Part shown: piece after piece, positions 2,794 to 57,625 of the stretch | Layout of the letters: every line of letters begins with the position of its first letter | How positions within the stretch are numbered: position 1 is the stretch's first letter | DNA from: Zygnema cylindricum | Lineage: Eukaryota > Streptophyta > Zygnematophyceae > Zygnematales > Zygnemataceae | Length of the DNA stretch: 64,000 nucleotides | Direction: 5' to 3' | NCBI GenBank assembly: GCA_037447655.1 | Contig: JBBHKE010002052.1 | Coordinates: forward strand, 219,996 to 283,995 | Notes under the pieces: generated by a model | The model's input: only the letters and a program-made list of their open reading frames with translations | The model's database searches: none | Told to the model about the DNA's origin: nothing | Program-made: the position numbers and the translations under genes

Positions 2794-3350
2794 GGCTTCC
2801 AAACAAAAGCTCAACAGACAACAACTACGCCTTCATACGAAAGGTTGGAAGCTAAATTACCGTACGCTCACTGAAGCTGAACGAATGCTATCAGATAATG
2901 TGTTATTCGCTAATTCAAGAAACAGACTCTTCTGACTTCCATGGCGACCGGTACCGTACACCTTAACTTTGTAATAATTACGACGGAATGATGACATGAC
3001 AGCGACTCCACGAGTGTATACGGAAGACATGCAACGCCATGGCGAGCTTAGTACAATAATGCAATGAAAAGACGTCCCGTTTTGCCGTCAACGTTCAGTC
3101 GTCTGTAAATTAAGTTTTTCATGGCCGACAACCTTCCTCCTCTATGTTTATCATTCTCTGCCATTTTCCTCTGAATGGTGGAGAATGAAATGGCTGTGCT
3201 TCGGCTTCGACTACCTGATTTTGCTTAAGTCTGTAGTCTGTCAGGATGCCTGTTCTGCATCCCAGCTTTCACCTCCAATGTTTGTGTAGTAGTTGTTAGT
3301 CTCCAGAGAAGTGGGGTTGTTCATTCTGCAGCAGCATTGTGCTGCAGTCA
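2794..3350. promoter_or_regulatory. Shared 5' region between divergent LRR and TGD4 genes
   Basis: A spacer of 557 bp separates the two inferred start codons, so both promoters and 5' UTRs must lie here if the starts are right. I see no clear TATA box in the expected place for either gene. Its status as a bidirectional promoter is inference from layout only. Confidence 0.4.
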
Positions 3351-25953: not shown

Positions 25954-27905
25954 TTATTGTCTCCGACCATACAGGCCCAGCTGTACGGCAGAATTCAAAA
26001 GCCTACAGAAAGACTGTATCCGACCCAAGCCACCACGCATTGGAAAGGCTCGAAATTGCTGGTTTCTAAATCGGGCTAGCAATGGCGTGGGAGAAACAAA
26101 TGGCCCAGGTCTATGCAATCTAAGCAGTCCCGTGTCAGTTATAACACTTTTCAGGTTATAAATAGAATTTCCATTTGGAATTTGTTCCTGGAGAGCAACT
26201 TCCCGTTTCAAGTTTAAGTTGTTTTTCCCTGTCCTGATCCCACTATTCCCTACAACTACACTGGGTAAAAGAATTCGATGAGCACTATTGACTTCTACTG
26301 CTAGATTATGTAACAGAAATGACTCTTCATTCTTTCTCTTGGAAGAACTGGGACCTTGGCCACAATCTGCTCCATCTCCTGCATTATCCTTGAGAATACT
26401 TCCTTTACACCCTTTCGATTCTAAAACTCCCACAATCAAAGTTTCCTTCTCAGAAACTATCAGGCCCTTGGCAGACTGTGACTGAGCAGCTAATGAGGTG
26501 GACATTATTGATGCCACTAGTTTCGGGGAAAGTTTACCAGGAATTTCTGAAAGTACAGCAGCTACTTTGTCAACTACAGACGTTCCTGGTTTAGGAACAG
26601 ATTTGGAAAAATCTTTAGTTTGCACAACAGGTACTTTAGTCAACTCTCTGGGTTCCACCATCTTAGGAGCAGGCTTGGAAGGAGCTTCAACAGGCACCAC
26701 CTTTTTATCTGGTTCCTTTGCAGGTTTTGGAGAATTCTTGACATCAATTGGTTTTTTACCTGGCCCATTTGCAGGTTTTGAATTCTTGACAGCATTCAAA
26801 TGTTTGTCTTGTACATTTGCAGGTTTTGAAGAATTCTTAACATCATTCGGTTTTTTCTCTGGTCCATTTGCAGGTTTAGGTGCATTCTTAACATCATTCG
26901 GTTTTTTATCTAGTCCATTTGTAGGTTTTGAAGAATTCTTGATGTCAGGCACCTGTTGCTTTGAAACAATACCCCGAGTAGTACTCACGATTTCCAGGGG
27001 AGGAAATTCCCACGCTTCCTCTTTGGTTACAATGCTCACACTTGGCATCAATTGAAGCGCCACACAAGTGCCTCTCGCCATTTGCGGCCACTCCCATTCG
27101 TCATTGGCAGCTCCTCTCAACAGACTGGCAACTGAATCCCTCGAAGGAAGGCAGGATATGCTCACTCTATATTGCAGATGACGCAATGCATGGAGTGCCT
27201 TTGAAAAACCTTGATCATTAGATATGAGCAACATGTGAGCAGGTGGCGGGTGTTGAAGAGCCCAGAGAAGCATGTCAACTAGGATAGCCTTGTCACTCGA
27301 ATCTTTGCCACCTGCAGCCACCAAGCATGCTAGTAATGGACATATGGAAATACAAAGAAAAGTCTTTAAAAACATTGGATAAAATGATACTTGTGAGCTT
27401 ATGAGGGATGTAAAATCACTACCATGTACTTCGTCAATCAAGGCAATACTATATCCAAGAACGTTAAAATACCAGATATCAGAAGAAGGCGATGCACATA
27501 AAAGAGTTTTTGTTGGAAATTAATGGTAGACGCAATGTGCCTTCCATAAGCCGAACTAAAAAGGATTGTCACATTCAGAGGGAATTAAGTACGGCAAGGG
27601 AAAAGGATCAAAAGCTTGCTATCATTTAAAGAAATACCTACATTTTGCCATTCACGTGTAGGCACATACTTACCTCTCGGCACATCTTGGAGGCTCACAT
27701 GGCTTGCACTGAGGCCTTTCCTTACAGTGAGAGGCAAAGTGTGTGTGTCACAGTATGCGGAAATAGAAAGGCTTCCAAAAATACCCTTTCCTGCTAAAGC
27801 ACATCGTATATTTCCGGCTATGGCTCCTGGTTCTACTCCAGAAGGGACACCACAATTCTCTATGTCCCACCATACAGACACAGGACACTGCCTTGGCGCT
27901 TCCAT
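25954..27905 (-). CDS. NYN-domain putative ribonuclease, paralogue 2
   Basis: Two exons: 27905-27674 and 27311-25954, phase 1 junction, 529 aa. The ATG at 27905 opens MEAPRQCPVSVWWDIENCGV, directly at the NYN domain, so unlike paralogue 1 there is no transit-like exon. The domain motifs WWDIENCGVP, AYCDTHTLP, SDKAILVDMLLWAL and LLISNDQGFSKALHAL keep the acidic positions. The linker then has at least five copies of a Lys/Pro/Asn repeat of about 18 residues (KPANGPEKKPNDVKNS type), followed by about 250 residues not present in paralogue 1 and not recognised. It lies in inverted orientation to paralogue 1 about 11 kb away, and similarity continues into the 5' flank (28060-28120). By family it probably cuts RNA. 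Confidence 0.82.
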
Positions 27906-38873: not shown

Positions 38874-40050
38874 TGTCAAGCTCGTGTGCATTTCAGACAC
38901 ACCTTTATATCCTTGAGGATTTCCGGGCCTTTTCTCCCTTATACGGTCCACAATGTACAGAGGAGTGAGTGCACCAAGCCGGATCAGCTCCTTCGATTCT
39001 CTAGACTAAGTGGAACGCACTTTACTTCGCGCCTAACGGAGGTCGGACGACCAAGTTATTCCGCCTCAAAGATTGCAAGTCCGTTACATGGGATCAGTTG
39101 CCACGAGCCCTTTTGGAGGGTACATTGTAGATCGCCACGTAACTTTCCGGATTATCATCTAGATTAGGCTGTTAACTGTCCGTAGAAATTTAGTTCAGTT
39201 TCAGCTGACTTTCGGTCCATTAATTACCTTAGGTCAAAGTCTCGCACTTCCGTATCATTTTTAGTACTTTGTTTTATAATAGTGGACTAAATAATTACTT
39301 CCGGCCGCGGATCTAGCCGCAGTCAGAAGCATAACTTTTTTCCCTAAGTGCAGTACGGATTAATTTGTCATATGTCAGTTCAATTACACTTGCTTGCCGA
39401 TGATTGGCTAATATCACAACTTTGACCTTTGGGCCTAAGATTAGACAAACTTTTGATGTATAAGGCACTTGGGGCCGAAGGAGACAGGTTGCTTTTCAGT
39501 ACTGTCTCTTGTGAAAACCCTAATAAATTCCAACAAACTTTCTTTTAGAGAATCTTTGTTTTGTTTTGACTTTATTGCCATCTTGGTTTTAGATTTGTCT
39601 TTTGTGGGAATCACAGTCTGGGCGGGTAGTTGGCACTATCTGCGTTTTGGGTGATTTTTGGAATTTTTACTATTTGAAACCGAGAAGAGTCTAGTTCGTT
39701 CCGAGTTGCGGACACTGGAGGTTGAAGGAGCTCCATCCCAATTCACGATACTATCGGGAGAGGGGTCTCCTTTTTCTCATTGTCATCGTTGATTACTAGG
39801 TTATGTTAAGCTTACTTCACTATTTTTCACATTTTCTATCTTTTATTCGCTTTTCTGGTGCAAGGTGATATTGTTAAGCCTGGAAAGCCAATCATATTCA
39901 TCGATATATTTCTACGTGTTAGTGCACTTGTGTCTTCGTCTGGAGTTCTCTTTTGTTTTGGAGTGACCGTTCCGGAGTAAACTGAAACCCCTTGATCAGG
40001 ACACAAGGTTTTGAGGGAACAAGTGTAATAGAATTCTTGTAGATAAAGCA
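38874..40050 (+). repeat. 5' LTR of the gypsy element
   Basis: Begins TGTCAAGCTCGTGTGC and ends ATAAAGCA. It aligns end to end with 56450-57625, with scattered substitutions. Sequence just upstream (to 38873) does not match the 284 bases that precede the 3' copy. Confidence 0.85.
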
Positions 40051-40257: not shown

Positions 40258-43200
40258 ATGTCTGAGGAGTCTATACCCTTGGAGTCTGTCTTTGATTCTC
40301 CAACCAAGGAACCAGCTGGAGCTTCTTCTCCTCCTCCTCCCAGTCTGACTCTCGAACATTACCCTTCCTTGGCGGAGGCCGCTAGGGCATATGCTGAGGA
40401 AAGGAAAGAAGCCCGGGCTCAGGCTCAGGAAAAGAATCGAGTGTCTCCCAATGCCCGGCCAGAGCGGCAGGCGCAGAGGGAGCCCCATTTGGATCCTCTT
40501 CCGAAGGTCGGGCTTCACACCAAATCCAATATTCCCCGGGCGGAAATCTAGATTGACCCCGCAGTTTTGACAGATCCACGTCGCCCAGGTTGTAAGGAAC
40601 TCCTTGCCCTTCACGACCACTATGAGCTGTAGGTGAAGAAGGAGTTGGTGCACAGAGTGGCTTGGACAGATTGAGTCAGTGTGGTTAGACCCGTGGGAGG
40701 GGTGGTGGAGATTTTGAGCAGTTCTTCAAAGAGCAGCTCTTCACAATCGGTGCCGGACCGGTCACAGAGAGTTCCCTATTCTCGCTCTCCTCCATCTTCC
40801 TCTCAGGTTACAGTAGCCAGCAGACCCTCCCAGGGACGCACCTCTTCGAGGCCTCGTAGAGGAGAAGGGGATAGCGAGAGGGAGGCTCGAGATCCATTGA
40901 GGGGAAAGAGGTTTGACCACAGGGACAACAAGGGGAGATTCGCACCTCTTCCCAAGGAGGAGATGTCCCCAACTCCTGTGTCAACCTCAACCGAGAGACC
41001 TTCTACAACAACAACTTGTGTTTGCCCTGCCAAAGGGCTCTGGCAATCCGAACCGACTGATCCAAAGGTTCCGGGTATGAGACCAGAAGATTTGTCCGAG
41101 GGCGGGTGGCGGACCAAACCTAATGATCCCGAAATTCCAGGGATGGGGATAGCGGATCTTACCAAAGTAGTCAAAAAGGCCAAGAACTAGGGGAGGTTCT
41201 AAAATCCTAAGGCAAGGAGGCTACGGCGGGGGCAGGACCCGTCACGGTAGATTGGGAAGCCTTAGTGGTAGAAAGGCGGAATTTATGGGAACAAGAATTG
41301 AAACTTATTCGGGAAGCTAGGCGTAGATCTAGTGGGATGCTCAACGGGCAGATTCCTCCTACACCAAAGACAGAGCCGCATCTGGAAGCGCCCGCTTAGG
41401 GGACTTCTCATCTTGCAAGCACCCAACCCAAAGTTCCTTCCTAGGAAACCAGCCGAGAGCCTCATCTTCAGCGGGATTGGGGGGGAAACATTGTACCTAA
41501 CTTGAAGGGATTGGGTGCAGATTTACCTCCTAAGTCTGCTTTAGAGCCTACCATTGTCTCGGTGGAGGTTGCTTTTGCCGTGGAGGCTTTGGTGGAGTTA
41601 CGACCGGACGAGAGGATTCACATTCCCTTGAGGCCGTCAACACCCCCTTCACTATCTCTTGGAATATCCCCAAATCTTCCATCTTCTCACTCCTCGTGTC
41701 CTACAATAGAGCCCCGAGAAGTTCCCGCCTCCTCTCCCTCTTCATCCTTTTCTCTCGCTGCTGCAGTCGGTGGGTCACCGGATCTGCCTGTCTTACCCTA
41801 TTAACACGACGTCTACTCCCCTCCTCACCGGCGTTCCCCATCCTCTAGTTCAGGAACTCCTCCTCCCGAGAGTTCCCAAAGACGATCAAGGAGACAAACA
41901 CCATTCACGAGACATACAACTTCTCCTCAAAGCCTCCAGTCGTCCCCTTCTCCCCCACCACCCATTCCCCAAGGACCTCCTTTGAACCGACCTCGCCTCC
42001 ACATCCCATTGGTGGAGCAAGTCCTCGGGGAAGAACAATACTCTCTTGGATATAGAGGATTAGTGGGGAACATCCTTCCTCTAACTATATTTTCAGGCGC
42101 TGGTACTTCCTCTTTGAGAGGGGGGTCCACACCTCTCAGGGAAACACCTCCCACCGCAGGAGGAGACGGTTCCGTTCTCGAGGAAGAGGACACAAGAGTC
42201 ATCTTGCCTGCTCAGTTTGTCAGCCCCACTTGGCCTTCCTCTTCCCATTTCACCAATTCTAGAGAGGAAGAAAAAGAAATGGGGGACATCCGGATCTTTA
42301 CCGGAGATAGCTAGGGGATCGCATTTTCAAATTTTTAATTGTTGTGGAAATCCTTCACACATTTGAGATCAACAAATACAGGGGAGGAGCCATTCTGGAT
42401 GAATTTGAAACAACCCTTTTCCCAATGATGGTCAACTACCTTTTTGGAGGGGCGTTCGCGGATTACAAAGAGCGACAACCACTCTTGATGGCTCCCAACA
42501 TCAAGATCTCAGATCCAGCTCTGGACACGGCTGTTTTACAAGCAGAGACTGACTTGTCTGCAGCGGTTGCAACACCTGTGACTGCTACCTTCACAAATGA
42601 TATGAAACTACAGGTCCAAGTAAGAGCCTATGTCAACCAGCTACAAGCCATTCAGGCGGCTCGGGCGGCAACTTGCATGGTTGCCAACCATAACCCTTGT
42701 ACAACTCTGCTGAATATCTGGAGGCTCCTCTACACCGAGAGGAACGAGTCTGCGATCAAGGAATTCATGGAATTCCGCTCTTTGAAGAAAGAGACTCCGC
42801 AGATCCTCTTTAACCAACTCTCCAGCCTTTGTCAGAAGACAAAGTTGTCCACTATTGATCTTCCTTGATGGGCCAGTATTTCATGCCGAAATGATTCATT
42901 AGGCCAACAGGCGGGCGCTCTTGGTAATTCGGTGCTGGACAGGCGGTTGGGCGTAATCCCTCAGGGACATTTCTTGGTGGCAATGAAGTTGTAGGATCAC
43001 TTTGTCCACATGGGAGCAGGGGAGAAAGTGACCCGACTGGCGAAATTGCAGGTTCGCAGGACCCGCGCGGGTGGGGAGGAAAAGGCTGAATTCAAGCACA
43101 GCTCAAAACAAGTGGTGACAGTAGTCAGAACGGCAATGGGAGCAGTCGATTGAGTTTTTTTTTACTATTGCCTAAATTTTCAGCAATTTGGTCATGGGTG

Positions 43201-43804
43201 GAAGCACTTCACACGGAAACTTAAACCGGAGCTTGCCTTGAAGCTAAAGAAATGGGAGAAAGAACATGCAGAAAGGACCCGGAAGCAGCCAGAAAGGCTC
43301 AAAGGGGAAGGAGGGGGGGAGAAGACGCCAGTAATCAAGGACACTTACCGTCTGACTCCCCGAAAAGAAACCGCCAAAATGTCGCAATCTTAGCTGCGAC
43401 AAATCAAACTTCCAAAGTTTGATGACGCCCAGATCTCAAATGAAATCTGCACTAAATACACCTCCGATGGAATGAAATGCAAGGCTTGCGGCTTCCTCGG
43501 GCATAAGGAAACGCAATGTTTGCGAAAGAATGGAGTTCCTAAAGAAATGATGCAGTTCGTCCTATTCACTAGAGAAGGAGAAACTGTTGTTAACCCTCTC
43601 CCACTTCAACTCCTCTATCCTTGGGAACGCCGAGTTCCGCTTTCCCAGGAGGAACCGGAGCAAGCTCTGGTAGCTACACCAAGACTTACACCGAAATTCA
43701 TCATCCAGCAGCAAAGTCAGCAACTAGCCGCAATGGCTGCAGAGTTGGTTGCACTCCGCTTGGGATCTTCTTCCCGGCTTGCTCCGCTCACAGCAGCACA
43801 ATGA
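40258..43804 (+). pseudogene. Gag region of the gypsy element, broken
   Basis: Frames broken by stops cover a long Pro/Ser/Arg-rich N-terminal part (40258-42314), containing a twice-repeated motif with NDPEIPGM and TDPKVPGM at 41060-41150. A capsid-like helical segment follows (42344-42868; ends near SLCQKTKLSTIDLP). A classic zinc knuckle lies at 43478-43519, C-x2-C-x4-H-x4-C (CKACGFLGHKETQC). Gag packages the RNA in virus-like particles; the knuckle binds nucleic acid. The N-terminal Pro-rich extension is long for a gypsy Gag. Not functional as read. Confidence 0.7.
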
Positions 43805-44415: not shown

Positions 44416-45190
44416 ATGCCATACGCCCTCACCCACGTAAATATTCAAGCATCCTCCCACAACCTGCTCAAAGAAATCCTCATTCAGGCATTGGGAGAAA
44501 AAATCCACTCTGGAAAAGGAAGGGTCGACAAGGCTACTTCGCCAACCGTAGTCGTTTTGTCCACAGATCGGAAAACCCCTATAGTGGATAGGGACTACAA
44601 AGCCTTATCAGTGGCTCTTATAGTGAAGCGAACAGGAAACTTGAAGCTCAACGGGTACGGAGGATACCAGGACGTTGTGGTCGACTCTGGAGCGCTCCCT
44701 AATCTCATCACCACCTCCGCTTTGCAGAAAATGCCTATGGAACACTGACCCGAAATCTGCCCAACAAATATCTGTTTAAGCACCGTAAGCAGCGGCAGTC
44801 AACCCGTCCATGGGATTATCAAGGCCATGGAAGTCGAGTTTTCTGATGACGGAGGCCAACGGGTGAAAATTGAGCTTCCCTTCCTAGTGGTGGAAGGGAC
44901 TCAATTCGAAATTCTGTTGGGAACTCGGCTAAATATGAGTTTAAGCGTGTGGAAATAACAGTGTACCGTTCAGGACCTCGGAAATCCCGAAGGAACCAAA
45001 GTGGTGGTTCCTTTCGATTTATGGAACCGGGGGAAGACAAATGTCTTGGTTTTTGGTTGCTACCCGGTGTATACTACATCATCTCCGACAAGACTGTTTG
45101 GCAGTTCCACAGATATCGCCGAAGAAATCTAGCAATTCCCCATTTCCAAGCGGTGGGAAGAGGAATACAAGATTAGATTATTACTGGTGG
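44416..45190 (+). pseudogene. Retropepsin-like aspartic protease region of the gypsy element
   Basis: The frame 44416-44748 contains QDVVVDSGALPNLITTSAL, where DSG is the active-site Asp motif of retroviral-type aspartic proteases. Sequence continues after a stop with LPFLVVEGTQFEILLGTRLN, the usual second half (hydrophobic-hydrophobic-G). The same frame then leads into the methyltransferase domain across two TAG codons (at about 45130 and 45192). The enzyme would cut the polyprotein into mature parts. Confidence 0.7.
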
Positions 45191-45207
45191 GGAAACTCTA
45201 GCGGGGA

Positions 45208-45996
45208 GTGGATCGGACTTTCTCGGCTTTACCAATAAAGGAAGCCGTTTCTACACCCCTGGCTGATGCTTCCAAAACGAGGTCCGATAACGAGGAATTT
45301 AACCGACATGTGGTGTCATTCACAATCCCAGATTCCGGACTCCAAATTTTATCTCTATTTTTTGGAATCAGTTTTAATTTAGAAGTTGTTCTAAAAACAA
45401 GATATCGGGTAGAGTCATATACACCTGTGGAGATATCACCAGAGGCACGGGCTGTCGGCGAACACCCCGTTCACCAACTTCAGACCATATACCCTCAACA
45501 ACTTCCAGTGTCTGCCTTTTCCAAAGCTCACCGGAGTCTTCCGCAGAATATTAAAAACATCCTGAAACCCCATCTAGCCAGTTTGGAAAGAATAGATCTG
45601 GTGATGGAAGGATGGCCTTGTCAGGGATACTCCCTAGCGGGACAAGGCAAAGGGCATCAAGACCGCAAGAGCCGAACATTTTATCGGTTGATCGAATTAA
45701 TCTCGTGGATTCAACAACTCGAATACACACCGGTGAGGTACGTTTTGGAGAATGTCCACCCAGAAGATGATAAACGGAAACATGTTGCTGACAGCTGGAA
45801 TCAAATAACCCGAATTATAAGAGCTCCTTTGGTTTTCGACGCCGCCCAGATAGGATCAAGAGCACACATAGTCAGGGCATATTGGACCAATATGATCCCG
45901 CTTCCAGTTCTCCGACAGCTATTGGATAAGCAGACCCCGACCCGAACAATTCGGTGCAGCACATACTTGGGGAAGGTAGGATGGCCACCCCTGTGA
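45208..45996 (+). CDS. C5-cytosine DNA methyltransferase domain inside the gypsy polyprotein
   Basis: A 262-codon open stretch with the ordered motifs of C5 DNA methyltransferases. Motif I is at residues 46-56 (QILSLFFGISF; the usual second Gly is not conserved), and a motif II acid is at Glu75 (YTPVEISPEA). Motif IV is GWPCQGYSLAGQGKG with the catalytic Cys138 (codon 45619-45621). Motif VI is LENV with Glu181, and a motif VIII-like block GSRAHIVRAYWTN is at 216-228. The enzyme class transfers methyl from SAM to C5 of cytosine. Spacing and the last block resemble the DRM/Dnmt3 side more than Dnmt1, but placement needs a tree. The C-terminal motif X is not evident. The domain lies between protease and RT, in the protease frame, and is the longest unbroken part of this region. 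It is probably inactive here because the polyprotein upstream is broken. Confidence 0.82.
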   Translation: MDRTFSALPIKEAVSTPLADASKTRSDNEEFNRHVVSFTIPDSGLQILSLFFGISFNLEVVLKTRYRVESYTPVEISPEARAVGEHPVHQLQTIYPQQLPVSAFSKAHRSLPQNIKNILKPHLASLERIDLVMEGWPCQGYSLAGQGKGHQDRKSRTFYRLIELISWIQQLEYTPVRYVLENVHPEDDKRKHVADSWNQITRIIRAPLVFDAAQIGSRAHIVRAYWTNMIPLPVLRQLLDKQTPTRTIRCSTYLGKVGWPPL

Positions 45997-46579
45997 CTCG
46001 ACCCGACCGCTCCCCCTTCTTTCGGTGTAATCGACCAAGATTCCCATGGAAGGCACTTCCCACAATGGTTTTTTTCCCACACAGCCACGCATATAGGAAA
46101 AGAGCAGCGGGAATGATGTTTGACAGCAAGGCGGGTATTTAGACGCCACCGACAAACGCTGAACAAATAATAAGCCATGGGATTCCATAAAGACACCACG
46201 GCAGCAACTCGTATTTGAGACCCCCAGAGGTGCAACCTTATAGGGCAAAATATGGATTTGAATTCCATCACATGGGTGCTCAAGGATGCACTCGCTTTTT
46301 CCAGTCTCAAGTCCCCAAAATCACGAGCTATTTACCTTCAAGCTCCTCAGTTGTTAGCGATGTAGGAAACTTTACAGCTTGAGGGGGGGAGAGAAAAGAG
46401 GAGAAAAATTCACATTTCACCAGCGCAAGTTTTCCTAGTTGGGGGGGGGCGGCAGCTCAGACGGCGACAGCTTAGCGGAAGTTGTCAGCAGTAGTGTCCT
46501 AGCCGGAGGGGTAGGGGCAGATCCACTGTTACGGTTGGAATTCGACAAAACCTCTGGGGTAGACTGCCGGAAGCTTAGG

Positions 46580-46648
46580 CTGCCGTAGAGCCGGGGAAAA
46601 TAGATTTGACCTTGGGGGAGCAGTTGGACCCTCAACAGAAGGCGTGGC
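46580..46648 (+). pseudogene. Gypsy pol just before RT, cut by the copia insertion
   Basis: The frame reads IDLTLGEQLDPQQKAW, the acidic lead-in found just before gypsy reverse transcriptases, and is broken at 46648 by the copia LTR. The continuing frame (ENKQVFSWSVTD) is found immediately after the copia element at about 53137. The 46000-46580 stretch between the methyltransferase and this point shows no recognised domain. Confidence 0.65.
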
Positions 46649-47687
46649 TGAAACTCTGAGACCTCCATAAGTCCTCAGAGTAGACAGCTTCCAAGAAGCC
46701 TCTAGGATAATCCTGACCCCTTTGTGTTCCAGCAAAAATAGCTGCCACCCTGGCAGACAAAAACCCTGACCACCTGCACCCCTGTGAAGGCAAGACTCCC
46801 CTGAGTCAATAGCAAAAAGAATCTCTGAATTTGCTCCCCTGAGCAGTAAGTTATGGAGGGTCAAAGTTGACCTTTTGTACAGAAGCTCTCTGGGAGAGAG
46901 GGTCCTATCTTCTAATTTTTCTAAGTCCTATCTCTCTCACAGACTCTATCTACTGATGTACGGAACCAATCATAATTGAGTTCCGTACGCAAAAGTACAG
47001 CCGCCGGTGTACTTTCAGTACGGACATTGTACGACATGCCCTAAATGTCGACACATGTCAAATCCGGATTCGGTGCCGTAATCTCCGGAGATTCCACAAT
47101 CCAACGGAATTTCGCCACGCGTCATCCGATGTGGCGATGGCCACAAACCGCCGAAATCTTCCTCCGCGATCTCGGCGCTAATTCCGGCCGTCCGATTAAA
47201 TTCAGATTTAATCGTAGCCGTAATAAATACATGCGCGGTATTTATTTCACTTCCGAAACAAATGCGCGGTATTGATTCGTAATCCGTACCGTCATCCGTA
47301 CCGGATCTATGTATCCCGTAATCCGTAACAGTTAAATGAATTTATCGTACGTATACGTCTTTAAATTATTATCAAACTATATAGTACCTAACACTAATCC
47401 TAGACTTAACGGCTAAGGCTACCGGCTACTTCCTATTTGCCGGCCGGGAGGTACAGTGATCAAATCCTGCCGCCGGCACATATCTTTTAGATAAATAAAT
47501 AATCCCTAAAATAAAATTCCCGTAAACCTTAGGATAGCCAAGGTAGCCATGGCTCTAGCTTCCTCTCCAATGTCTCAGTGACTGCGACAAGTTTGAGAGT
47601 TGGAGAGAGAAGTTAGAAGTACTGCCTCGGCTTCTTTCTATTTCTATTTAGACCTAGAAAATACTAATAAATCCATTAGTTTCTACA
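46649..47687 (-). repeat. 3' LTR of the copia element
   Basis: 1039 bp; on the minus strand it starts TGTAGAAACTAATGG and ends GAGTTTCA. The plus-strand frame at 47045-47275 is antisense LTR sequence, not a gene. Confidence 0.95.
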
Positions 47688-47698
47688 CTCCCCTTATT
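47688..47698 (-). other. Polypurine tract of the copia element
   Basis: Minus strand AATAAGGGGAG lies directly before the 3' LTR and a few bases after the stop codon of the polyprotein (47703-47701). It would prime plus-strand DNA synthesis. Confidence 0.9.
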
Positions 47699-47700
47699 TT

Positions 47701-50700
47701 CTAGTCAATCTTTAATTTCAGACCACACTTCTCCCTGCAAAAAATTAGCTTAGGGGAAGGCACAGGTTTGGTCATCATATCTGCTACCATCTCACTATCT
47801 GGTCTGTACTCTAAACTGATTATTTTGTTTTCTACTTTCTCTCTAACAAAGCTGAGTCTGATGTCCATGTGTTTGGCTTTAAAATGGTGTTTAGGATTGG
47901 CAGAAATAGCGATTGCTGCCTGATTATCACAAAATATTTTCTGCACACCACTCTTAAGGTGACCAAGCTCACCAAGCAAAGACTTGACCCACATCAATTC
48001 TTTTACAGCAGAGCAAGAGGCCATATACTCAGCCTCCATGGTGGACTGAGCAATAACCTTTTGTTGTTTGCTACTCCAACAGCAAGCCCCATCACCCACA
48101 TATAATACATATCCAGAAGTACATCTCCTCATCGGAGCATCACCATAACTGGCATCACTCCAAGTAGTGATGTCAGTATTCTCCCCACCCAAATGCAACC
48201 ATAGATCTCTAGTTCCTACCAAATATCTAAGGACTCTCTTAGCTGCCTCCCAATCCCTTTTAGTGGGAGCATTTAGACTTCTACTCAGCACTCCTACAGC
48301 TGCAGCTAAATCCGGCCGGGTACAATTCATAAAATAGATTAGACTTCCCACTACTTGCCTGTAAGGAATAGTCTGCATGAACTTCTGTTCATCAGGAGAT
48401 AATTCCTCGTCTATGACTATGACTCCTTCTTCCTCACTCCCCTCACTTCCCTTCTTCAACTCCATTGGAGTTGTACAACTATTAGCTTTATCCATTTGAA
48501 ATTTTTCAAGCATGTTCCCTATTGCTTCCTTTTGAGTCAATTTTATAATTTTCCTTTTCCGGTCTCTCTCTACTTGAATTCCCAAAATATATCTTGCTTC
48601 TCCCATATCCTTCATTTCAAATCTCCCCTTAAGATCGGTTTTCAGTTTGTTAATTTTTTCCATTGATTTACTTAATACAAGCAAATCATCAACATAAATT
48701 GCAATAAATATCAAACCTTCCTCATCTTCAAAAACATAGATTGAGTGATCTGAGCTGATCCGAATATATCCCAGACCGGTAAGAAACTCATCAAGCTTCT
48801 TATTCCATTGTCGAGGTGCCTGTTTCAAACCGTAAAGAGATTTAATCAGCCGGCATACCTTACTCTCCTCTCCTTCCTCCACAAAACCTTCGGGTTGTCG
48901 CATGAAGATCTCCTCTTCCAATTCTCCATGCAGAAAGGCTGTCTTGATGTCCATCTGATGCACTTCCATGTCTTCCGCTGCTGCTAAACTGAGAAGTATG
49001 CGGACGGAGGGAAATCTGACCACCGGGGCAAAGGTTTCCTCATAGTCAATTCCTTCCTTTTGTGTAAATCCCTTTGCCACTAATCTGGCCTTGTAGCGTT
49101 CGATTGTGTTATCTGGGTTCAGTTTTAATTTGAAGACCCACTTACAACCAATTGGTTTTCGGTTAGGTGGACAGTCCACCAGCTCCCAAGTATCGGCTGC
49201 CATGATTGAAGCCATCTCCTCATTGATGGCTGTCTTCCACCGGTTTCTTTCTGGACAAGTCATCGCCTCTCTATAAGATTGAGGTTCATCTTGATGAGAT
49301 AGTTTAGTTACCTTGTTATTAACCTGTTTTTCTTGCAGTCTTTTGCTACTTCTCCTCCCCCCCTCAAAATCTGATGCCGGATGAGATGGTTCTCGTGGAT
49401 TCTTTCGAACAAACTCGGCTTCTCCCCTATCCCTTGATTCCGAATCAATTTCCACCACGTCTTCCGCTTCGAGTAGAGTTGTCACTGGAGTTTCCACAGC
49501 CGAGTCCTTTTCGGTCTGATTTGTTCCTGCAAGAATGTCATCTTCTCTAAAACCTGGATAGTTAGGAAGCTCAAAGTCATCGGAATTTTCTGACTCAAAT
49601 CTGATTTTTACTGACTTTGTATATTTGAAGGGATCCACAGACTTTCCTTCATCCATAACTACTAGATGCTTTACTAAGATTATATCTTCCCTTTTTAAAT
49701 CATAAACTCTATATCCTTTAACATCTTCATCATATCCTAATAAGTATCCCGGTTTTCCTTTAGGATCTAGCTTCCAATTGGACCGATCAGTATCTAGACT
49801 GAATACTTGACTGCCGAAAACCTTTAAGTGAGATATGTATGGTTTCCGGCCTGTCCATCTCTCATAAGGTGTTTGATCTTTTATAGCTGAAGTAAGAACT
49901 CTATTCTTGAGGTAATTAGCACAGTTCATTGCTTCTGCCCAAAACCTTTTTCCTATCTTTTTATCTGACAACATACTTCTAGCACTATCACTTAGTGTTC
50001 TATTTAACCTTTCAGCTACCCCATTCTGTTCCGGATTTTCTGGAACTGTCTTTTGGTGTTGAACCCCATCTTCCCTCAGAAAATCCTCAAACTGGTTAGA
50101 AGTATACTCTCCACCATTGTCACTCCTTACTCTCTTGATTGGAGTTTCATGGAGTTTTTCGCTCCATGCTTTATATTGTCTAAAACAATCCTCAGCTTCG
50201 GACTTGTTTTTCAAAAAATATACCCGGGAATATCGAGACCAATCATCAGTTATAGTCATCATAAATCTCTTCCCCCCCGGTGAGGGCACTCTAGCCGGTC
50301 CCCAAATATCTGTGTGTACTAGATCTAGAAGTTTTTCTCCCTTATAGGTGGCTGTTTTAGGAAAGGGTAATCTGTGTGCTTTACCTTGAGCACATCCACT
50401 ACAATCACTTATATCATCACTCTCACTGAACTGAATCCCTTCCACCACTCCCATCTTTTTCATCTCTCTTAACTTATCTAGATTCACATGCCCAAGCCTC
50501 TTATGCCACATCATAATATCATGAACACCAGCATAGTAAAGTTTCTTCTTTTCATTACTTAAGATCAGCCTAAACATCCCATGGCTACCTTTCTCAGCAA
50601 TGAAATAGACATCATCCTCAAAACTAGCAGTAAAGACTCCTTCCCTAGTGCTAGTAAAAAAACCCTTATCATCTAATACTGATGTAGAGATAAGATTTTT

Positions 50701-52035
50701 GTTCAGCTCCGGAATAAACAATACATCGGAGAATGTTAATATGGATGTCTTTCCTTCTACTAACACTTTTAGATCTACCGATCCTACAAGAGTAGTGGTG
50801 ACTATCCTCCCATCCCCGTACTCTATCTCTACGGTGGGAATCTTTCTTATCTTAGTGAACAGGTGTCTATCCTTACACATGTGCATGGAAGCACCTGAAT
50901 CTACAATCCAGCCTGCTTCACCTTTCAATCCACCGTAAGCACATTTCTGCCTCCGTGGAATTTCGACCTCTTTTTTCGCCTCCAACTCCTCATCCAAAAG
51001 GAGCTCATCGTCCTCGTCCTCGGATTCAGCCTCAAGTACCTGTGTGACAAGGGCATTTTTCTTTCCTCTCGGGCTTCCACCGGTCTGCCCCTCCTTTAAC
51101 CGAAGCTCGGTTAGCTTAGTGCACTCTGCCATATAGTGCCCCGGTTTCTTACAAAAATGACATAGACCTTTGGGAGCCCTTGGTTCGAACTCATCTGCCT
51201 GTTTTTTCTGCTCCCTACCCCCATAGTTTCCGACCGGTTTTCGGGAATCCCTATTCCTCCAATCACTCGCTGTTGCCAAGGCTTGGCCACTCTTTCCTCC
51301 CCTTCGGATCTCAATTGTATTCTCTTGAACGAGAATCATCCCTACCACTGAGTTCCATATCCACCTTGAGTCAGGCAAGTCCTGCACACGGTAAACTATG
51401 TTCACGAACTCATCAGGTAACTTCATCAGTAAACAGTTAACCTTTTCTTTTTCACTAAAATCTTTTCCCGCACTCTGTAGCTCCATGAAGAGTGTAGCAA
51501 GCTCATTGCAAAAATCCAACATATTTCCCCCTTTGTATACATACTCCTTAACTTTCTGATCAGCCAACTGTTGTTGCTGAATCGTACCACTTCGGTACAT
51601 CTCTATGAGAGCCATCCAAAGATCGGATGCTCTTTCTACCTGCAAATGAGGACATGCAAGTCCTTGAGTGAGATGGCGTAGGATGAAGTGTTTTGCCGCC
51701 ATATTGTTGAAGTCCCAGGTTTCAGTATCATTCTCCTCATTCCTCGGAATAGGTGACATGAATGTGGAACCAGTTGCTATTGGTGTGGTCGTCTCCTTCT
51801 CCTTTCCTTTGTCCACTACCTCTCCTTCATTTGTTTCCTCCGTTGAAGGTGGGTCCTCTTTCCTGGTGAATCTGGTTCCTCCAAACCCTGGAGGAATTCC
51901 AAGACTTGATGGACGCCCCAACCGTCCACTCACTATCCCCCAAAACCTTTTTTCGCATAGAGCTCCTATCATCATACTTTCCCAGTATATGAAGCCAGTT
52001 CCATTAAAGATTGGTACCCTAGAGGGTGGGCCCAT
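47701..52035 (-). CDS. Copia Gag-Pol polyprotein, intact
   Basis: One frame of about 1444 residues from ATG 52035 (MGPPSRVPIFNG), or 1452 from an in-frame ATG inside the 5' LTR (52059). Order: Gag with a UBN2-like helical core (residues about 100-250), CCHC knuckle CHFCKKPGHYMAEC, and protease WIVDSGASMHMC. Then integrase with HHCC (HKRLGHVN ... CSGCAQG) and the D,D,E set (HTDIWGP, SDNGGEY, PEQNGVAERLNRT). Then RT (KWVFKLKLNPDNTIERYKAR, MDIKTAFLHGELEEEI, YVDDLLVLS) and RNase H (SDASYGDAP, STMEAEYMA, KHMDIRLSFVREKV). Integrase before RT defines Ty1/copia. All catalytic residues are present and no stop interrupts it. Gag and Pol share one frame, so the Gag:Pol ratio must be set by another route, such as splicing or protein turnover. 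Confidence 0.95.
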   Translation of the reverse strand: MGPPSRVPIFNGTGFIYWESMMIGALCEKRFWGIVSGRLGRPSSLGIPPGFGGTRFTRKEDPPSTEETNEGEVVDKGKEKETTTPIATGSTFMSPIPRNEENDTETWDFNNMAAKHFILRHLTQGLACPHLQVERASDLWMALIEMYRSGTIQQQQLADQKVKEYVYKGGNMLDFCNELATLFMELQSAGKDFSEKEKVNCLLMKLPDEFVNIVYRVQDLPDSRWIWNSVVGMILVQENTIEIRRGGKSGQALATASDWRNRDSRKPVGNYGGREQKKQADEFEPRAPKGLCHFCKKPGHYMAECTKLTELRLKEGQTGGSPRGKKNALVTQVLEAESEDEDDELLLDEELEAKKEVEIPRRQKCAYGGLKGEAGWIVDSGASMHMCKDRHLFTKIRKIPTVEIEYGDGRIVTTTLVGSVDLKVLVEGKTSILTFSDVLFIPELNKNLISTSVLDDKGFFTSTREGVFTASFEDDVYFIAEKGSHGMFRLILSNEKKKLYYAGVHDIMMWHKRLGHVNLDKLREMKKMGVVEGIQFSESDDISDCSGCAQGKAHRLPFPKTATYKGEKLLDLVHTDIWGPARVPSPGGKRFMMTITDDWSRYSRVYFLKNKSEAEDCFRQYKAWSEKLHETPIKRVRSDNGGEYTSNQFEDFLREDGVQHQKTVPENPEQNGVAERLNRTLSDSARSMLSDKKIGKRFWAEAMNCANYLKNRVLTSAIKDQTPYERWTGRKPYISHLKVFGSQVFSLDTDRSNWKLDPKGKPGYLLGYDEDVKGYRVYDLKREDIILVKHLVVMDEGKSVDPFKYTKSVKIRFESENSDDFELPNYPGFREDDILAGTNQTEKDSAVETPVTTLLEAEDVVEIDSESRDRGEAEFVRKNPREPSHPASDFEGGRRSSKRLQEKQVNNKVTKLSHQDEPQSYREAMTCPERNRWKTAINEEMASIMAADTWELVDCPPNRKPIGCKWVFKLKLNPDNTIERYKARLVAKGFTQKEGIDYEETFAPVVRFPSVRILLSLAAAEDMEVHQMDIKTAFLHGELEEEIFMRQPEGFVEEGEESKVCRLIKSLYGLKQAPRQWNKKLDEFLTGLGYIRISSDHSIYVFEDEEGLIFIAIYVDDLLVLSKSMEKINKLKTDLKGRFEMKDMGEARYILGIQVERDRKRKIIKLTQKEAIGNMLEKFQMDKANSCTTPMELKKGSEGSEEEGVIVIDEELSPDEQKFMQTIPYRQVVGSLIYFMNCTRPDLAAAVGVLSRSLNAPTKRDWEAAKRVLRYLVGTRDLWLHLGGENTDITTWSDASYGDAPMRRCTSGYVLYVGDGACCWSSKQQKVIAQSTMEAEYMASCSAVKELMWVKSLLGELGHLKSGVQKIFCDNQAAIAISANPKHHFKAKHMDIRLSFVREKVENKIISLEYRPDSEMVADMMTKPVPSPKLIFCREKCGLKLKID

Positions 52036-52039
52036 AACC
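52025..52039 (-). other. Primer-binding site complementary to the initiator tRNA-Met anticodon arm
   Basis: The 15 bases directly after the 5' LTR (minus strand GGTTATGGGCCCACC) are complementary to the anticodon arm of plant initiator tRNA-Met (GGUGGGCCCAUAACC), not to its 3' end. The gag start codon ATG (52035-52033) lies inside it, opposite the CAU anticodon. The same 15 bases follow the 5' LTR of the copia copy at 62073. Drosophila copia is known to prime from an internal tRNAi-Met fragment. Confidence 0.82.
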
Positions 52040-53117
52040 TGAAACTCTGAGACCTCCATAAGTCCTCAGAGTAGACAGCTTCCAAGAAGCCTCTAGGATA
52101 ATCCTGACCCCTTTGTGTTCCAGCAAAAATAGCTGCCACCCTGGCAGACAAAAACCCTGACCACCTGCACCCCTGTGAAGGCAAGACTCCCCTGAGTCAG
52201 TAGCAAAAAGAATCTCTGAATTGCTCCCCTGAGTCAGTAGCAAAAAGAATCTCTGAATTTGCTCCCCTGAGCAGTAAGTTATGGAGGGTCAAAGTTGACC
52301 TTTTGCACAGAAGCTCTCTGGGAGAGAGGGTCCTATCTTCTAATTTTTCTAAGTCCTATCTCTCTCACAGACTCTATCTACTGATGTACGGAACCAATCA
52401 TAATTGAGTTCCGTACGCAAAAGTACAGCCGCCGGTGTACTTTCAGTACGGACATTGTACGACATGCCCTAAATGTCGACACATGTCAAATCCGGATTCG
52501 GTGCCGTAATCTCCGGAGATTCCACAATCCAACGGAATTTCGCCACGCGTCATCCGATGTGGCGATGGCCACAAACCGCCGAAATCTTCCTCCGCGATCT
52601 CGGCGCTAATTCCGGCCGTCCGATTAAATTCAGATTTAATCGTAGCTGTAATAAATACATGCGCGGTATTTATTTCACTTCCGAAACAAATGCGCGGTAT
52701 TGATTCGTAATACGTACCGTCATCCGTACCGGATCTATGTATCCCGTAATCCGTAACAGTTAAATGAATTTATCGTACGTATACGTCTTTAAATTATTAT
52801 CAAACTATATAGTACCTAACACTAATCCTAGACTTAACGGCTAAGGCTACCGGCTACTTCCTATCTGCCGGCCGGGAGGTACAGTGATCAAATCCTGCCG
52901 CCGGCACATATCTTTTAGATAAATAAATAATCCCTAAAATAAAATTCCCGTAAACCTTAGGATAGCCAAGGTAGCCATGGCTCTAGCTTCCTCTCCAATG
53001 TCTCAGTGACTGCGACAAGTTTGAGAGTTGGAGAGAGAAGTTAGAGGTAGACTGCCTCGGCTTCTTTCTATTTCTATTTAGACCTAGAAAATACTAATAA
53101 ATCCATTAGTTTCTACA
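52040..53117 (-). repeat. 5' LTR of the copia element
   Basis: 1078 bp, 39 bp longer than the 3' LTR. The excess is a 37-bp head-to-tail duplication around 52195-52265 (units containing CTCCCCTGAGTCAGTAGC and AAAAAGAATCTCTGAATT) plus a 2-base indel near 53045. Confidence 0.95.
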
Positions 53118-54072
53118 GTGGCTTTCCGAACTGTTGGTCGAAAACAAGCAGGTGTTCTCATGGTCAGTAACAGATGTCAGTATCTACAAAAGAACCCCTT
53201 TCCGAATCGATTTGATCGACGAGACGGCTTCTGTTTGGCAGAAGCAGTATCCTCTCAGCTTCAAAAAGAAGGAATTCATCATGGCAAAAGTCTAGACTTT
53301 GGTGGAAGCCTGATTGGTTCAGGAAAGTACAGGACTTCATGGGTTTGCCTCCTCGACACTTCTCCCTCCCAAGAAGGACTCGTTCGCAAAAACTGTAGAT
53401 TTTCGGATGTGTGGAGATTGTCGCATGCTGAACACTGCCACCATTTCTGACTGGTATTCGATGCCGACCCCGGAAGACATATTCGAATCACTTGCTGGTG
53501 CCCTTATCTACTCCACTCTGGACATGAAAAACGGTTTCCACCAGATTGCCATGGAACCAAAGAACCGGGAAAGAACGGCCTTTTGGGCGGGCTTTTGGCT
53601 TTATGAATGGATTTACATGCCATTCGAGCTTAAGAATACGCCGGCCAAATTCCAACGGGCCATGGACGAAGTACTCCGAGGAATCGATTCTGCCTGGTGC
53701 TATATTGATGATGTTATCATCTTCTCAAAGACCTTTGAAGAATACTTGGAGCATTTCCAAATCGTCCTCCGAGCCCTTCAAGCTGCACGCTTGAAATGTA
53801 ACCTGGGCAAAGGTATTTTTGGGGTACATAAAATCGTTTACCTCAGAAATGAGGTGACTCCTAGGACTGTGGGTCCCCACATGGTCAAGGTGGCAACCCT
53901 TGACGCCCTTCTCCCACCGCAGAACATCTCGGCCGTTCGAACCTTTCTGCGTCTAGCCAACTACTATCGGCGGTTTATTCCTAAGTTCAGTAGTCACGTT
54001 CAGCCCCTCGATGAGCTATTGCGGAAAGACCAAGGATGGCAGTTGGCCGAAGAACAACAGATCGCCTTCTAG
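53118..54072 (+). pseudogene. Gypsy reverse transcriptase region
   Basis: After the copia insertion the frame resumes (ENKQVFSWS), has two stops near 53295-53310, then runs open from about 53314 to a TAG at 54070. RT landmarks: VDFRMCGDCRMLN, STLDMKNGFHQIAM (first catalytic Asp), RTAFWAGFWLYEW-MPFELKNTPAKFQ, and the active-site box YIDDVIIFS (53701-53727). LRLANYYRRFIPKFS follows at the RT/RNase H connection. RT copies element RNA into DNA. Confidence 0.85.
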
Positions 54073-54075
54073 TTC

Positions 54076-54645
54076 TTGAAGGATGTTTTGAAGCAACACC
54101 GCGTGCTGCGGATGCCTGATCACCAAAGGCGTTTCCTCCTTTACACTGATTGGAGCAGGTTTGGATTGGGAGCGGTTTTGGCTCAAGTCGATGATGTAGG
54201 AGCTGAATACGTGGTGGCCTACGCCAGGCGGAGCAACAACAGAGCAGAAGGGAATTATAGCAGTTACCACGGAGAGCTACTCGCAGCGGTTTGGGCAAAT
54301 GAACATTTCTTACCTTATTTGTACGGGGTCTATTTCACCCTGATCACAGATCACCAACCCCTGAAATGGATCATGGAAAATAGTCAGTTAACAGGCAAAC
54401 TCGCCAGATGGGTTTTTATCCTGCAGGAATATGATTTCAAATTTGTTCATAAAGCAGGGCAAATCCATGGGAATGCCGACGGACTTAGCCGGAATCCCGA
54501 TCCCTCCACTATGGATTCTACGGTGGCTCGACATGATGAGGACCTTGAAATCAGTCTGGGACTCATCTGGGCATCCTCCGCTTTCATCTGGCTTCTTCAA
54601 TCTGGGGGGGAATCGTCAACTTTTTTGGCCGACGTGGAGGGGTAG
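54076..54645 (+). pseudogene. Gypsy RNase H region
   Basis: In frame with RT after one TAG. RNase H acidic residues are visible: LYTDWSRFGLGAVLAQ (Asp), YSSYHGELLAAVWANEHF (Glu) and LITDHQPLKWIM (Asp), ending with HKAGQIHGNADGLSRNP, the usual gypsy RNase H tail. It removes RNA from the RNA-DNA hybrid. It is followed by a broken linker (54645-55020) leading into integrase. Confidence 0.85.
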
Positions 54646-55019
54646 GCGCCCATAGGGGCCGGACGGAAGGATATCTGGAACGACCCCGATGCTCTCCGAT
54701 TTATCCAGCAAGGGTTGCCTCTTCCCCACTTGACTGGAATCCGATTATCTCGAGTGCAGACCCGGATACTGCGTATAATTAGGAAAGAGGCGTTCTCCTC
54801 CGGAAATGGTCAGACGGCACGAGGAAAGTGGTTCCTCCCCACCGAGAAACTATGATTTCCATTCTCCATCAGCAATGTGGACATTTCGGGCAAAAGCGGA
54901 CCACTTCCCTTGTTTTGGGGTCTTATTGGTGGCACGAGTTGTAGACCCAAGTCAAGAGAAATGTGTAGACTTGCTCCTCCTGCGATCGAGTCAAGGTAGC
55001 TTTTGACAAGAAAGGCGGA

Positions 55020-55865
55020 ACTGAACTTCATTCGCTTCCAATCCGGGGGATGTTTTATCGATGGTCTTTGGATCTTTTGGTACCTCTTCCAACCAGGAGG
55101 CGGGGGAACCGTTTCGTGCTGGTCATGATAGAACATTTTTCCAAGTGGATCGAGTTGGTGGTTTTGCCCCGGAAGGAGTCCAAGGCAATTGCAGATGCGT
55201 TTTTGCAAAGGGTTTTAGCTCAATTCGGGGCGCCTACGGAAGTTCTAACAGACTAAGGCTCCGAATTTGCCAGAGAATTTTCCAACCTCTTAGAAAAATG
55301 CCTTGTCAACCATTGGCTGACAAGCCGTGACCACCCGCAAGCTGACGGTTTGGCCGAAAGGTGCGTACAGACAGTGAAACGGTCACTACGAAAATATGCA
55401 GTTGAAGAAGATTTGGGGGAGTGCGACAAAAGGGTACCTTGGATTGCTATGGGATACCGATTCAGCAGACAAGCTTCTCTCCACTTCTATAGTCTTTACT
55501 TCATTTTATTTGGACGGCATCCCATCCTGCCCAGGGCTGCATCGGCCCAAGCGGTGGTCCTCCCAGAGATAGATGACAAAGGGACTGTCAAAAACCTGAT
55601 TGCCGACCGAGCCAAGATATTCTACCGAGAGATGCCTCTCTCCATTGGGAATTTACAAGCGGCTCAGCACCGAGACCAGTTGTGGTACTCCCATCGCCAG
55701 AGCGGGAATTATGTGCCCTGGCAGCGACGATTTATGCCGGGGGACTTTGTATATCAGATGCAACAGAAAAAGGACACGCTGGATATTTCTGCCGGCCGCG
55801 TAACTTTGAGAGTGGTGGAACTTTCCAACAAGGGGGTTCTTACATTGGAGGGAAAGGATGGTTGA
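55020..55865 (+). pseudogene. Gypsy integrase core and C-terminal domain
   Basis: Frames 55050-55256 and 55350-55865 carry the catalytic triad: Asp in WSLDLLVPLPTRR, Asp in GAPTEVLTD (directly before a TAA at 55254, where a Gln codon is usual) and Glu in HPQADGLAERCVQTVKRSL. The C-terminal beta-barrel part includes FMPGDFVYQM and GVLTLEGKDG, and after a TGA the frame continues KENQINVAPCHL, the normal end of a gypsy integrase. The enzyme inserts the DNA copy into the host genome. Inactive here. Confidence 0.8.
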
Positions 55866-55938
55866 AGAATTAAAGAGAATCAAATCAATGTGGCCCCTTG
55901 CCATCTTCGAGGATGACGAAACCACTTTCCACTTAACT

Positions 55939-56118
55939 TACTTTGCCGATCCTCCTTCCTGTTCATCAGTTTGCAATCAGTCCTCCCAGCTGGACGACGT
56001 CTTGGTCTGCAATCACTGTTGTCTGTGTTGGCATCCAACTTGTATCCCCTCCTCATGGGAACCATGCCCTTTACCCTCCAACTCATGGTTATGTGGGAAC
56101 TGCGAATGGAGCGGGTAA
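55939..56118 (+). CDS. PHD-type zinc finger at the end of gypsy pol
   Basis: In the frame ending TAA 56118, 55960-56104 encodes C-x3-C-x11-C-x2-C-x4-H-x2-C-x16-C-x2-C (CSSVC ... LVCNHC ... WHPTC ... WLCGNC). This is the Cys4-His-Cys3 pattern of PHD fingers, including the Trp before the seventh Cys. PHD fingers bind histone H3 tails in known proteins. It is one frame away from the preceding integrase end, so a 1-base shift has occurred between them. Placed after integrase, it occupies the position chromodomains take in chromoviruses. Confidence 0.72.
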   Translation, partial: YFADPPSCSSVCNQSSQLDDVLVCNHCCLCWHPTCIPSSWEPCPLPSNSWLCGNCEWSG

Positions 56119-56166: not shown

Positions 56167-57625
56167 TGGGATACCAACCCGATTACCGAGACCCCAATCC
56201 CTTTCCCCGGCTAGGTGGGGAACGGAAGGGGGAGGGGATTACCTTCGCCTTCCCAAGCTCTTATTCCCTTTCCTAGTCCAAGTGTCTCTCCTATTTGGCA
56301 TGCATATCTATGAGAGGGATATAAGCTGCAGTGGGCATGATCATTTTTTGTGGGAAGCACTCGCATTTGGGACTTATTTGCGGGACTCCTATGTTGACGA
56401 CTCCGGGGTGGGTGCCCTTCTCTTATGTTTCTCAAGCACGCTTGACAGCTGTCAAGCTCGTGTGCATTTCAAGCACACCTTAATATCTTTAAGGATTTCC
56501 GGGCCCTTTCTCCCTTGTACGGTCCCCATAGTACGCAGGAGTGAGTGCGCCAAGCCAGATTAGCTCCTTAGATTCTCTAAACTGAGCGGAACGTACTTTA
56601 CTTCGCGCCTAACGGAGGTCGGACGACCAAGTTATACCGCCTCAAAGATTGCAAGTCCGTTACATGGGATCAGTTGCCACGAGCCCTTTTGGAGGGTACA
56701 TTGTGGATTGCCACGTAACTTTCCGGATTATCGTCTAGATTATGTTGTTAACTGTCCGTAGAAATTTAGTTCAAGTTCAGCTGACTTTCGGTCCATTAAT
56801 TACCTTAGGTGAAAGTCTGGCACTTACGTGTGATTTTCAGTACTTTGTCTTATAATTGTGGACTAAATAATTACTTCCGGTCGCGGATCTAGCCGCAGTC
56901 AGAAGCATAACTTTTTGCCCCGAGTGCAGTACAGATTAATTTGTCATATGTCTGTTCAATTACACTTGCTTGCTGCTAATTGGCTAATAGCACAACTTTG
57001 ACCTTTGGGCCTCAGATTAGACAAACTTTTGATGTAAATGGCACTTGGGGTCGAAGGAGACAGGTTGCTTTTCAGTAATGTCTCTTGTGAAAACCCTGAG
57101 AAATTCCAACAAACTTTCTTTTGGAGAATCTTTGTTTTGTTTTGACTTTATTTCCATCTTTGTTTTGGATTTCTCTTTTGTGGAGTCATAGTCTGGGAGG
57201 GTAGTTGGCACTATTTGTTTTTTGGGTGATTTTTGGACTTTTTACTGTTTGAAACCGAGAAGAGTCTGGTCGGTTCCGAGCTGCGGACACCGGAGGTTGA
57301 AGGAGCTCGATCCCTATTCACGATACTATCAGGAGAGGGGTCGCCTTTTTCTCATTGTCATCGTTGATTACTGGGGTATGTTAAGCTTGCTTCACTATTT
57401 TTCACATTTTTTATCTTTTATTCGCTTTTCTGGGGCAAAGTGATATTGTTAAACCTACAAAGCCAATCATATTCATCTATATATTTCTACATGTTAGTGC
57501 ACTTGTGTCTTCGTCTGGAGTTCTCTTTTGTTTTGGAGTGACTGTTCCGGAGTAAACTGAAACCCTTTGATCAGGACAGTGGGTTTTGACGGAACAAGTG
57601 TAATAGATTTCCCGTAAACAAAACA
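56167..57625 (+). repeat. 3' LTR of the gypsy element (long form)
   Basis: 56450-57625 is the copy of the 5' LTR. The preceding 56167-56449 starts TG after the polypurine tract and recurs, broken by a solo LTR, right after 57627, so it too is LTR-like. It ends GTAAACAAAACA. Confidence 0.72.

Follow-up and report, generated by a model that had tools for sequence, protein, structure and literature searches.

A Dnmt3-type methyltransferase in the pol region of a Ty3/gypsy family of Zygnema cylindricum, with a conserved TAG codon ahead of it

The gypsy element and its methyltransferase

The stretch of the Zygnema cylindricum genome analysed here (64,000 nucleotides of contig JBBHKE010002052.1, hereafter the window) contains an ancient, no longer functional member of a Ty3/gypsy family with a Dnmt3-type DNA methyltransferase (MTase) in pol. 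The element was recognised as a Ty3/gypsy long terminal repeat (LTR) retrotransposon by two direct LTRs and by an aspartic protease (PR), a reverse transcriptase (RT) and an RNase H that are followed by the integrase (IN). From 5' to 3', its interior comprises a Gag-like segment, a CCHC zinc knuckle, PR, MTase, RT, RNase H, IN and an end resembling a PHD finger, located as follows.

38874..40050, plus strand: 5' LTR, 1177 bp, TG...CA; its ends match the LTRs of some other copies
42311..42865, plus strand: Gag-like segment; matched by tblastn in 14 of the 20 copies fetched
43394..43801, plus strand: CCHC zinc knuckle segment, end of Gag; matched in 15 of the 20 copies
44575..44949, plus strand: PR with the motif DSGALPNL, located by alignment with that of copy L048; one internal stop
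45130..45132, plus strand: conserved TAG stop separating PR from MTase, in the context ATC TAG CAA TTC CC; candidate readthrough site
45202..45996, plus strand: open stretch with MTase motifs I, IV, VI and VIII
45316..46335, plus strand: complete MTase domain, motifs I to X; single frame, five stops
46649..53117, minus strand: nested copia element between MTase and RT; LTRs 46649-47687 and 52040-53117, 95.8% identical
53296..54027, plus strand: gypsy RT, Pfam RVT_1 7e-19, aligned to copies; one stop
54028..54522, plus strand: RNase H, Pfam RT_RNaseH 1.4e-29; one stop
54822..55556, plus strand: integrase, H2C2 and rve, Pfam 1.7e-10 and 2.2e-10; three stops
55912..56115, plus strand: PHD-finger-like C-terminus of Pol, Pfam PHD 19.2 bits (cut-off 24)
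56450..57625, plus strand: 3' LTR

The gypsy LTRs are 91.6% identical, with 98 mismatches (57 transitions and 41 transversions) and 1 gap, and no target-site duplication was recognised at their flanks. No Pfam gag family matched the Gag-like segment, the zinc knuckle (CKACGFLGHKETQC) was identified by eye, and the PR of L048 scored 22.3 bits with Pfam Asp_protease_2, slightly under the cut-off of 24.3. An initial annotation of the window, made from the letters alone (the first-pass annotation), had placed the MTase between PR and RT in pol. This order holds, but the annotation did not mention that the two are separated by the 6.5-kb copia insertion, which has an uninterrupted frame of 1454 amino acids (47701-52065) and the target-site duplication GTGGC (46644-46648 and 53118-53122). 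The nested copia is younger than the gypsy element around it.

Positions 45208-45996 encode the N-terminal two thirds of a C5-cytosine MTase. The HMM search that the first-pass annotation had proposed matched this stretch to Pfam PF00145 (DNA_methylase) with 34.6 bits (cut-off 22, E 1.9e-8); the motifs that it had quoted are all present in the order and frame claimed, and PR (44575-44949) and MTase (45208-45996) do share a frame. By contrast, the domain does not end at 45996, since the similarity runs on in frame to about 46335, adding motifs IX and X, through five stops (45994, 46114, 46168, 46171 and 46216) that all lie past motif VIII. The MTase of the window copy is therefore itself broken, so that the argument from a domain kept open over 262 codons amid broken surroundings fails here, and constraint becomes visible only by comparing many copies.

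Regarding the class of the enzyme, motifs I, IV (PC), VI (ENV), VIII, IX and X occur in the order of C5-cytosine MTases and the family score is above the cut-off. The best phmmer match in the PDB was DNMT3C (4.4e-7), followed by DNMT3B and DNMT3A, and the nearest solved structures, within the PDB, are DNMT3 by sequence and by fold; DNMT1, CMT and Dnmt5 were absent from these match lists, an absence that does not exclude them. In DRM enzymes, motifs VI-X stand ahead of I-IV; as the order here is not rearranged, a DRM-type enzyme was ruled out. A tree of 66 sequences (50 of 111 homologous proteins, nine genome copies and others) grouped the host-genome copies in one clade with a support of 99, and placed the mouse DNMT3C fragment, its sole native Dnmt3, without support (31). 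On these sequence comparisons, the gypsy MTase is assigned to the Dnmt3 type.

A many-copy family under purifying selection

In the host assembly (352.8 Mb, 2689 contigs), the MTase gave at least 148 match rows, including the window and two copies split in two, and a DNA pattern for motif IV gave 191 exact matches, against 0 for the reversed control. According to excerpts of the genome report for Zygnema cf. cylindricum SAG 698-1a (PMC9915684), that assembly measures 359.8 Mb, with 29.8% Copia and 5.9% Gypsy. Twenty copies selected for stop-free MTase stretches were fetched and searched for the order claimed for the window: PR precedes MTase in 17, MTase precedes RT in 18 and the whole order PR-MTase-RT is found in 16 of them. 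In L048, MTase, RT, RNase H, IN and the PHD-like end lie in one frame of 1520 codons.

The genome was also examined from the side of the RT. Among 150 RT places, a listed MTase lies within 2 kb upstream in 59 and at 7-11 kb in five, including the window; a search with a second MTase subfamily and the motif pattern paired 24 further places, and a third MTase search with four fetched stretches another 12. The MTase is accordingly close in 95 and distant in 5 of the 150, the remaining 50 being unpaired among the matches listed. When four of the 86 initially unpaired places were inspected, all four had an MTase. The first-pass annotation had held that full-length relatives without the domain would speak for a chance insertion, and the 11 RT-bearing loci tested besides the window (L053-L059 and L060-L063) all carry an MTase upstream. 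It should be noted that one RT match (G000:C961:71659-72414) lies inside an open frame of 5743 amino acids, perhaps an assembly gap read as open.

The visibly nested and broken state of the window element would suit a later chance insertion, or a shuffled host fragment, in this single copy. The match rows and motif patterns, and the same order in other copies and in the distant relative L023 described below, stand against such an event, which the host-genome copies rule out with near certainty. Because of the 191 motif patterns and the order kept in 16 of 20 copies, the MTase is no late accident.

Over 24 aligned loci, several of them broken, the catalytic Pro-Cys is present in 24 and the Glu of ENV in 23, and the His of motif VIII is present in 24 and the Arg after it in 21. 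The dN/dS comparison proposed by the first-pass annotation was carried out under a codon model (MG+F3X4, kappa 1) on copies with at least 80% coverage (16 for PR, 20 for MTase, 14 for RT, 17 for RNase H and 12 for IN), leaving out L039 (dropped) and L025 and L029 (no plus-strand match). In a preceding pairwise comparison, 126 of 231 MTase pairs were usable, the others being saturated, too short or too close. Under the codon model, omega was 0.20 for the MTase (0.17 in its N part and 0.23 in its C part), compared to 0.12 for PR, 0.10 for RT, 0.15 for RNase H and 0.10 for IN, values that come from copies chosen for open frames and include decay after insertion. These results demonstrate that the MTase of this many-copy family is under purifying selection.

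When subfamily A (8 copies) is compared with the remaining copies, fourfold-site divergence is alike along the element (PR 0.61, MTase 0.59, RT 0.56, RNase H 0.54 and IN 0.53), whereas protein identity is 71% for the MTase and 89% for RT, so that the MTase has travelled with the element while being conserved less tightly. These like distances rule out a module swap between subfamilies as the source of the faster MTase. Pairwise MTase and RT distances are correlated (Spearman 0.80, 168 pairs).

A conserved TAG, a PHD-like end and relatives in other genomes

Among the 17 PR-bearing copies, ten have PR and MTase in one frame; all ten carry a TAG at the same place, and in nine of them it is the only in-frame stop between the two. 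This unseeded count covers only those ten copies. An alignment seeded on the motif (28 loci inspected, with no credible match in L043, L060 and L063 and none in L062) showed the TAG to be invariant in 24 of 24 loci and followed by CAATTC in 23, while some nearby positions vary. The codon lies at 45130-45132 in the window and at 3423-3425 in L048. A search for conserved RNA structure 3' of the TAG gave -6.3 kcal/mol, a value reached by 3 of 100 column shuffles, with few pairs, and was not used.

A distant relative is L023 (contig CADCWO010000201.1), where a single frame of 1086 amino acids encodes Gag, PR and MTase and is followed by TAG CAA TCA (TAG at 3261-3263) and, in the same frame, by RT and RNase H. 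Like the Zygnema element, L023 has the order Gag-CCHC-PR-MTase and then RT-RNase H, with an MTase that is 36% identical; its sole in-frame TAG stands 3' of the MTase, whereas that of the Zygnema family stands 5' of it. L023 sits in a cyanobacterial metagenome-assembled genome (GTDB) and is probably a eukaryotic contamination.

Leaky stops of the plant-virus type have the context UAG CAR YYA. The UAG CAA UUC of the Zygnema family agrees with it in all but the last base, and the UAG CAA UCA of L023 fits it fully. The TAG is a candidate site of programmed readthrough, with the MTase downstream of the stop here and upstream in L023. As the conserved TAG lies between PR and MTase, translation of the latter would probably require readthrough and yield it within the Pol product, together with RT and IN. 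This changes the view of the first-pass annotation, which had the MTase made and cut out with the other enzymes.

A pattern search located motif X in 72 of the 111 homologous proteins, none of which has an RT motif after it. Certain C-terminal endings past the MTase recur, such as LSATK in P0037-P0039, which are closely related to L023, and SPGIQ or SLGIQ elsewhere. Their recurrence suggests frequent termination past the MTase, although contig ends may account for some of the endings. The stop does not keep to one side of the MTase, because L023 and several relatives end after the MTase; in P0054 and P0067, the MTase is directly followed by an integrase with no RT between them. The same MTase family occurs in the liverwort Calypogeia fissa (P0014, E 1.3e-77) and in the moss Sphagnum jensenii (P0111, E 2.9e-4). 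Both proteins, like the Zygnema element, have a protease-like segment before the MTase (seen by eye; LLDSGAQP in P0111). They differ from it in ending after the MTase, P0014 matching PF00145 only and lacking a DSGA-type motif, and P0111 lacking a Pfam match and motif IV. Another 22 relatives lie on viral contigs and were taken as viral MTases. A second scan gave none, and the MTase query matched no protein of Pol length.

After the integrase, a C4HC3-like pattern is present in 13 of the 20 copies and in the window, with a cysteine lost in some (7716-7985 in L048). Pfam PHD scored 17.5 and 19.2 bits, both under the cut-off, and the PDB matches were the MLL3 PHD (8e-4), MTF2 (0.0019) and the plant ATXR5 PHD (0.0048). 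Chromoviruses are Ty3/gypsy elements with a C-terminal chromodomain after the integrase, and thus share with the Zygnema element a putative chromatin reader at this place, theirs being a chromodomain and that of Zygnema a PHD-like C4HC3 pattern; no match to the Chromo family was obtained up to E 0.1 in the 1520-residue Pol of L048. The PHD-like end is possibly a histone reader for integration. The PHD family of Zygnema cf. cylindricum is, in excerpts of the genome report, at least nine times that of other Zygnema strains (PMC9915684), and this expansion could in part consist of transposon Pol proteins counted as host factors.

A Dnmt3 in a gypsy Pol is not new. KnitGypsy-Dnmt3 of Klebsormidium nitens, as described in excerpts of de Mendoza et al. 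2018 (PMC5890265), is likewise a Dnmt3-type enzyme with unrearranged motifs in the Pol open reading frame (ORF) of a streptophyte LTR Gypsy element, under purifying selection, the same features by which the present element belongs to the retrotransposon-encoded Dnmt3. It differs in the DIRS-like repeat arrangement given in a figure legend, whereas the window gypsy has ordinary direct LTRs, two whole ones, with no split internal repeat listed; the excerpted account, with which we compare by description only, mentions neither a conserved TAG nor a PHD-like end. The same source describes SymbioDIRS-Dnmt3, also a Dnmt3-type MTase in Pol with RT, but in a DIRS element with a tyrosine recombinase in place of the integrase, whose domains methylate CpG in yeast, and SymbioLINE-Dnmt, also a retroelement-borne C5 MTase, but one of an orphan lineage, in LINE ORF1, with a CpG depletion that is absent from the Zygnema element. 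In the literature searched, mainly titles and abstract openings with few subscription papers, no mention was found of a PHD end, of a conserved UAG or of such elements in liverworts or mosses. Measured against that literature, the new features here are the conserved TAG, the PHD-like end and the liverwort and moss MTase relatives.

Elsewhere in the window, a second, related copia begins near 62053 on the other strand. Two NYN-type gene pieces (15941-17130, plus strand, and 25957-27519, minus strand), similar by eye and in opposite orientation, may represent a host gene duplicated in inverted form. The genes of the window, on our own reading a betaine-lipid synthase, TAF8 and NYN-domain proteins, look streptophyte. 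No Rfam match reached the gathering score.

Possible role of the methyltransferase

We lean, by a modest degree, towards a scheme that unites a leaky UAG, a packaged MTase that marks cDNA and a PHD-like module that steers the integrase. Working members would encode the protease part, the leaky UAG and then MTase-RT-RNase H-IN-PHD. Occasional readthrough would bring the MTase into the Gag particle in an amount as low as that of RT and IN, and PR would free it there; it would then methylate the new cDNA, most likely at CpG by analogy with the yeast-active DIRS domains, and the copy would reach the nucleus and integrate already marked, while the PHD-like module would steer the integrase to a histone state. 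The observations under this scheme are domain identity and order, conservation, purifying selection, co-inheritance with RT, the conserved TAG and the PHD-like end. From them we infer readthrough, cleavage, catalytic activity, cDNA as substrate and PHD targeting. Packaging with RT and IN and marking of cDNA are favoured because of the location in Pol, the selection, the co-inheritance and the CpG activity of SymbioDIRS-Dnmt3.

Several points weigh against this scheme, and some of them concern the stop itself. The TAG could simply end the PR protein, with MTase-RT made in another way; PR and MTase lie in different frames in 7 of the 17 PR-bearing copies, which we read as decay; and in several relatives, L023 among them, the MTase is the last part of the protein. 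If the TAG were the ordinary end of Gag-PR or PR, MTase-Pol would come from a spliced or internally initiated RNA, as a Met 19 codons past the TAG in L048 and the unconvincing RNA structure after the stop would allow. We regard this as unlikely, though worth keeping in view, given that PR and MTase stay in phase across the TAG in ten of the 17 copies, that CAATTC is held while its neighbours vary, and that TAG CAA recurs in a relative as distant as L023.

The remaining points concern the task of the enzyme. Constraint on the MTase is about half that on RT, as estimated from copies picked for their open frames, and the KnitGypsy-Dnmt3 domain gave no methylation in yeast, a result that its authors, in the excerpts cited, call inconclusive (PMC5890265). 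Neither CpG nor CWG depletion was seen as a footprint of self-methylation, the observed/expected CpG ratio being 0.69 (gypsy), 0.66 (copia) and 0.72 (flank), with a median of 0.67 over the 20 copies. An MTase whose task was lost or changed, serving as a nucleic-acid-binding module in the particle or methylating RNA (tRNA primer or genomic RNA), would account for an omega twice that of RT, for the missing footprint and for a motif X that mostly reads GQSMD where many C5 MTases have GNS. This is rather improbable in our view, since the catalytic Cys and Glu persist in 24 and 23 of 24 loci, several of which are broken, and the best PDB matches are DNA enzymes. Alternatively, the MTase could be made in trans and methylate host chromatin or other copies, limiting copy number or superinfection; the many copies in the genome would agree with this, and effects on the host and a slowing of retrotransposition are considered in excerpts of de Mendoza et al. 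(PMC5890265). We give this host-directed role a slightly smaller chance still, and a role in the particle fits better, because the MTase lies in one pol frame with RT and IN and co-evolves with RT.

Taken broadly, and at a confidence that stops just short of an even balance, the element would represent a streptophyte Ty3/gypsy lineage with its own epigenetic writer and reader on one Pol, the MTase dose being set by a leaky UAG. Depending on the lineage, the MTase would be found together with Gag-PR on one side of the stop, together with RT-IN on the other, or beside the integrase as in P0054 and P0067; the elements would thus have retained it through changes of dose and partner. Because hosts silence transposons by cytosine methylation, it is paradoxical that an element should retain a Dnmt3 of its own under selection across a long divergence. 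With at least 191 motif-bearing places and with the liverwort and moss relatives, the case moves beyond one charophyte and the dinoflagellates, and the conserved UAG and the PHD-like end provide testable handles on the control of MTase dose and on a coupling of DNA marking to the choice of integration site.
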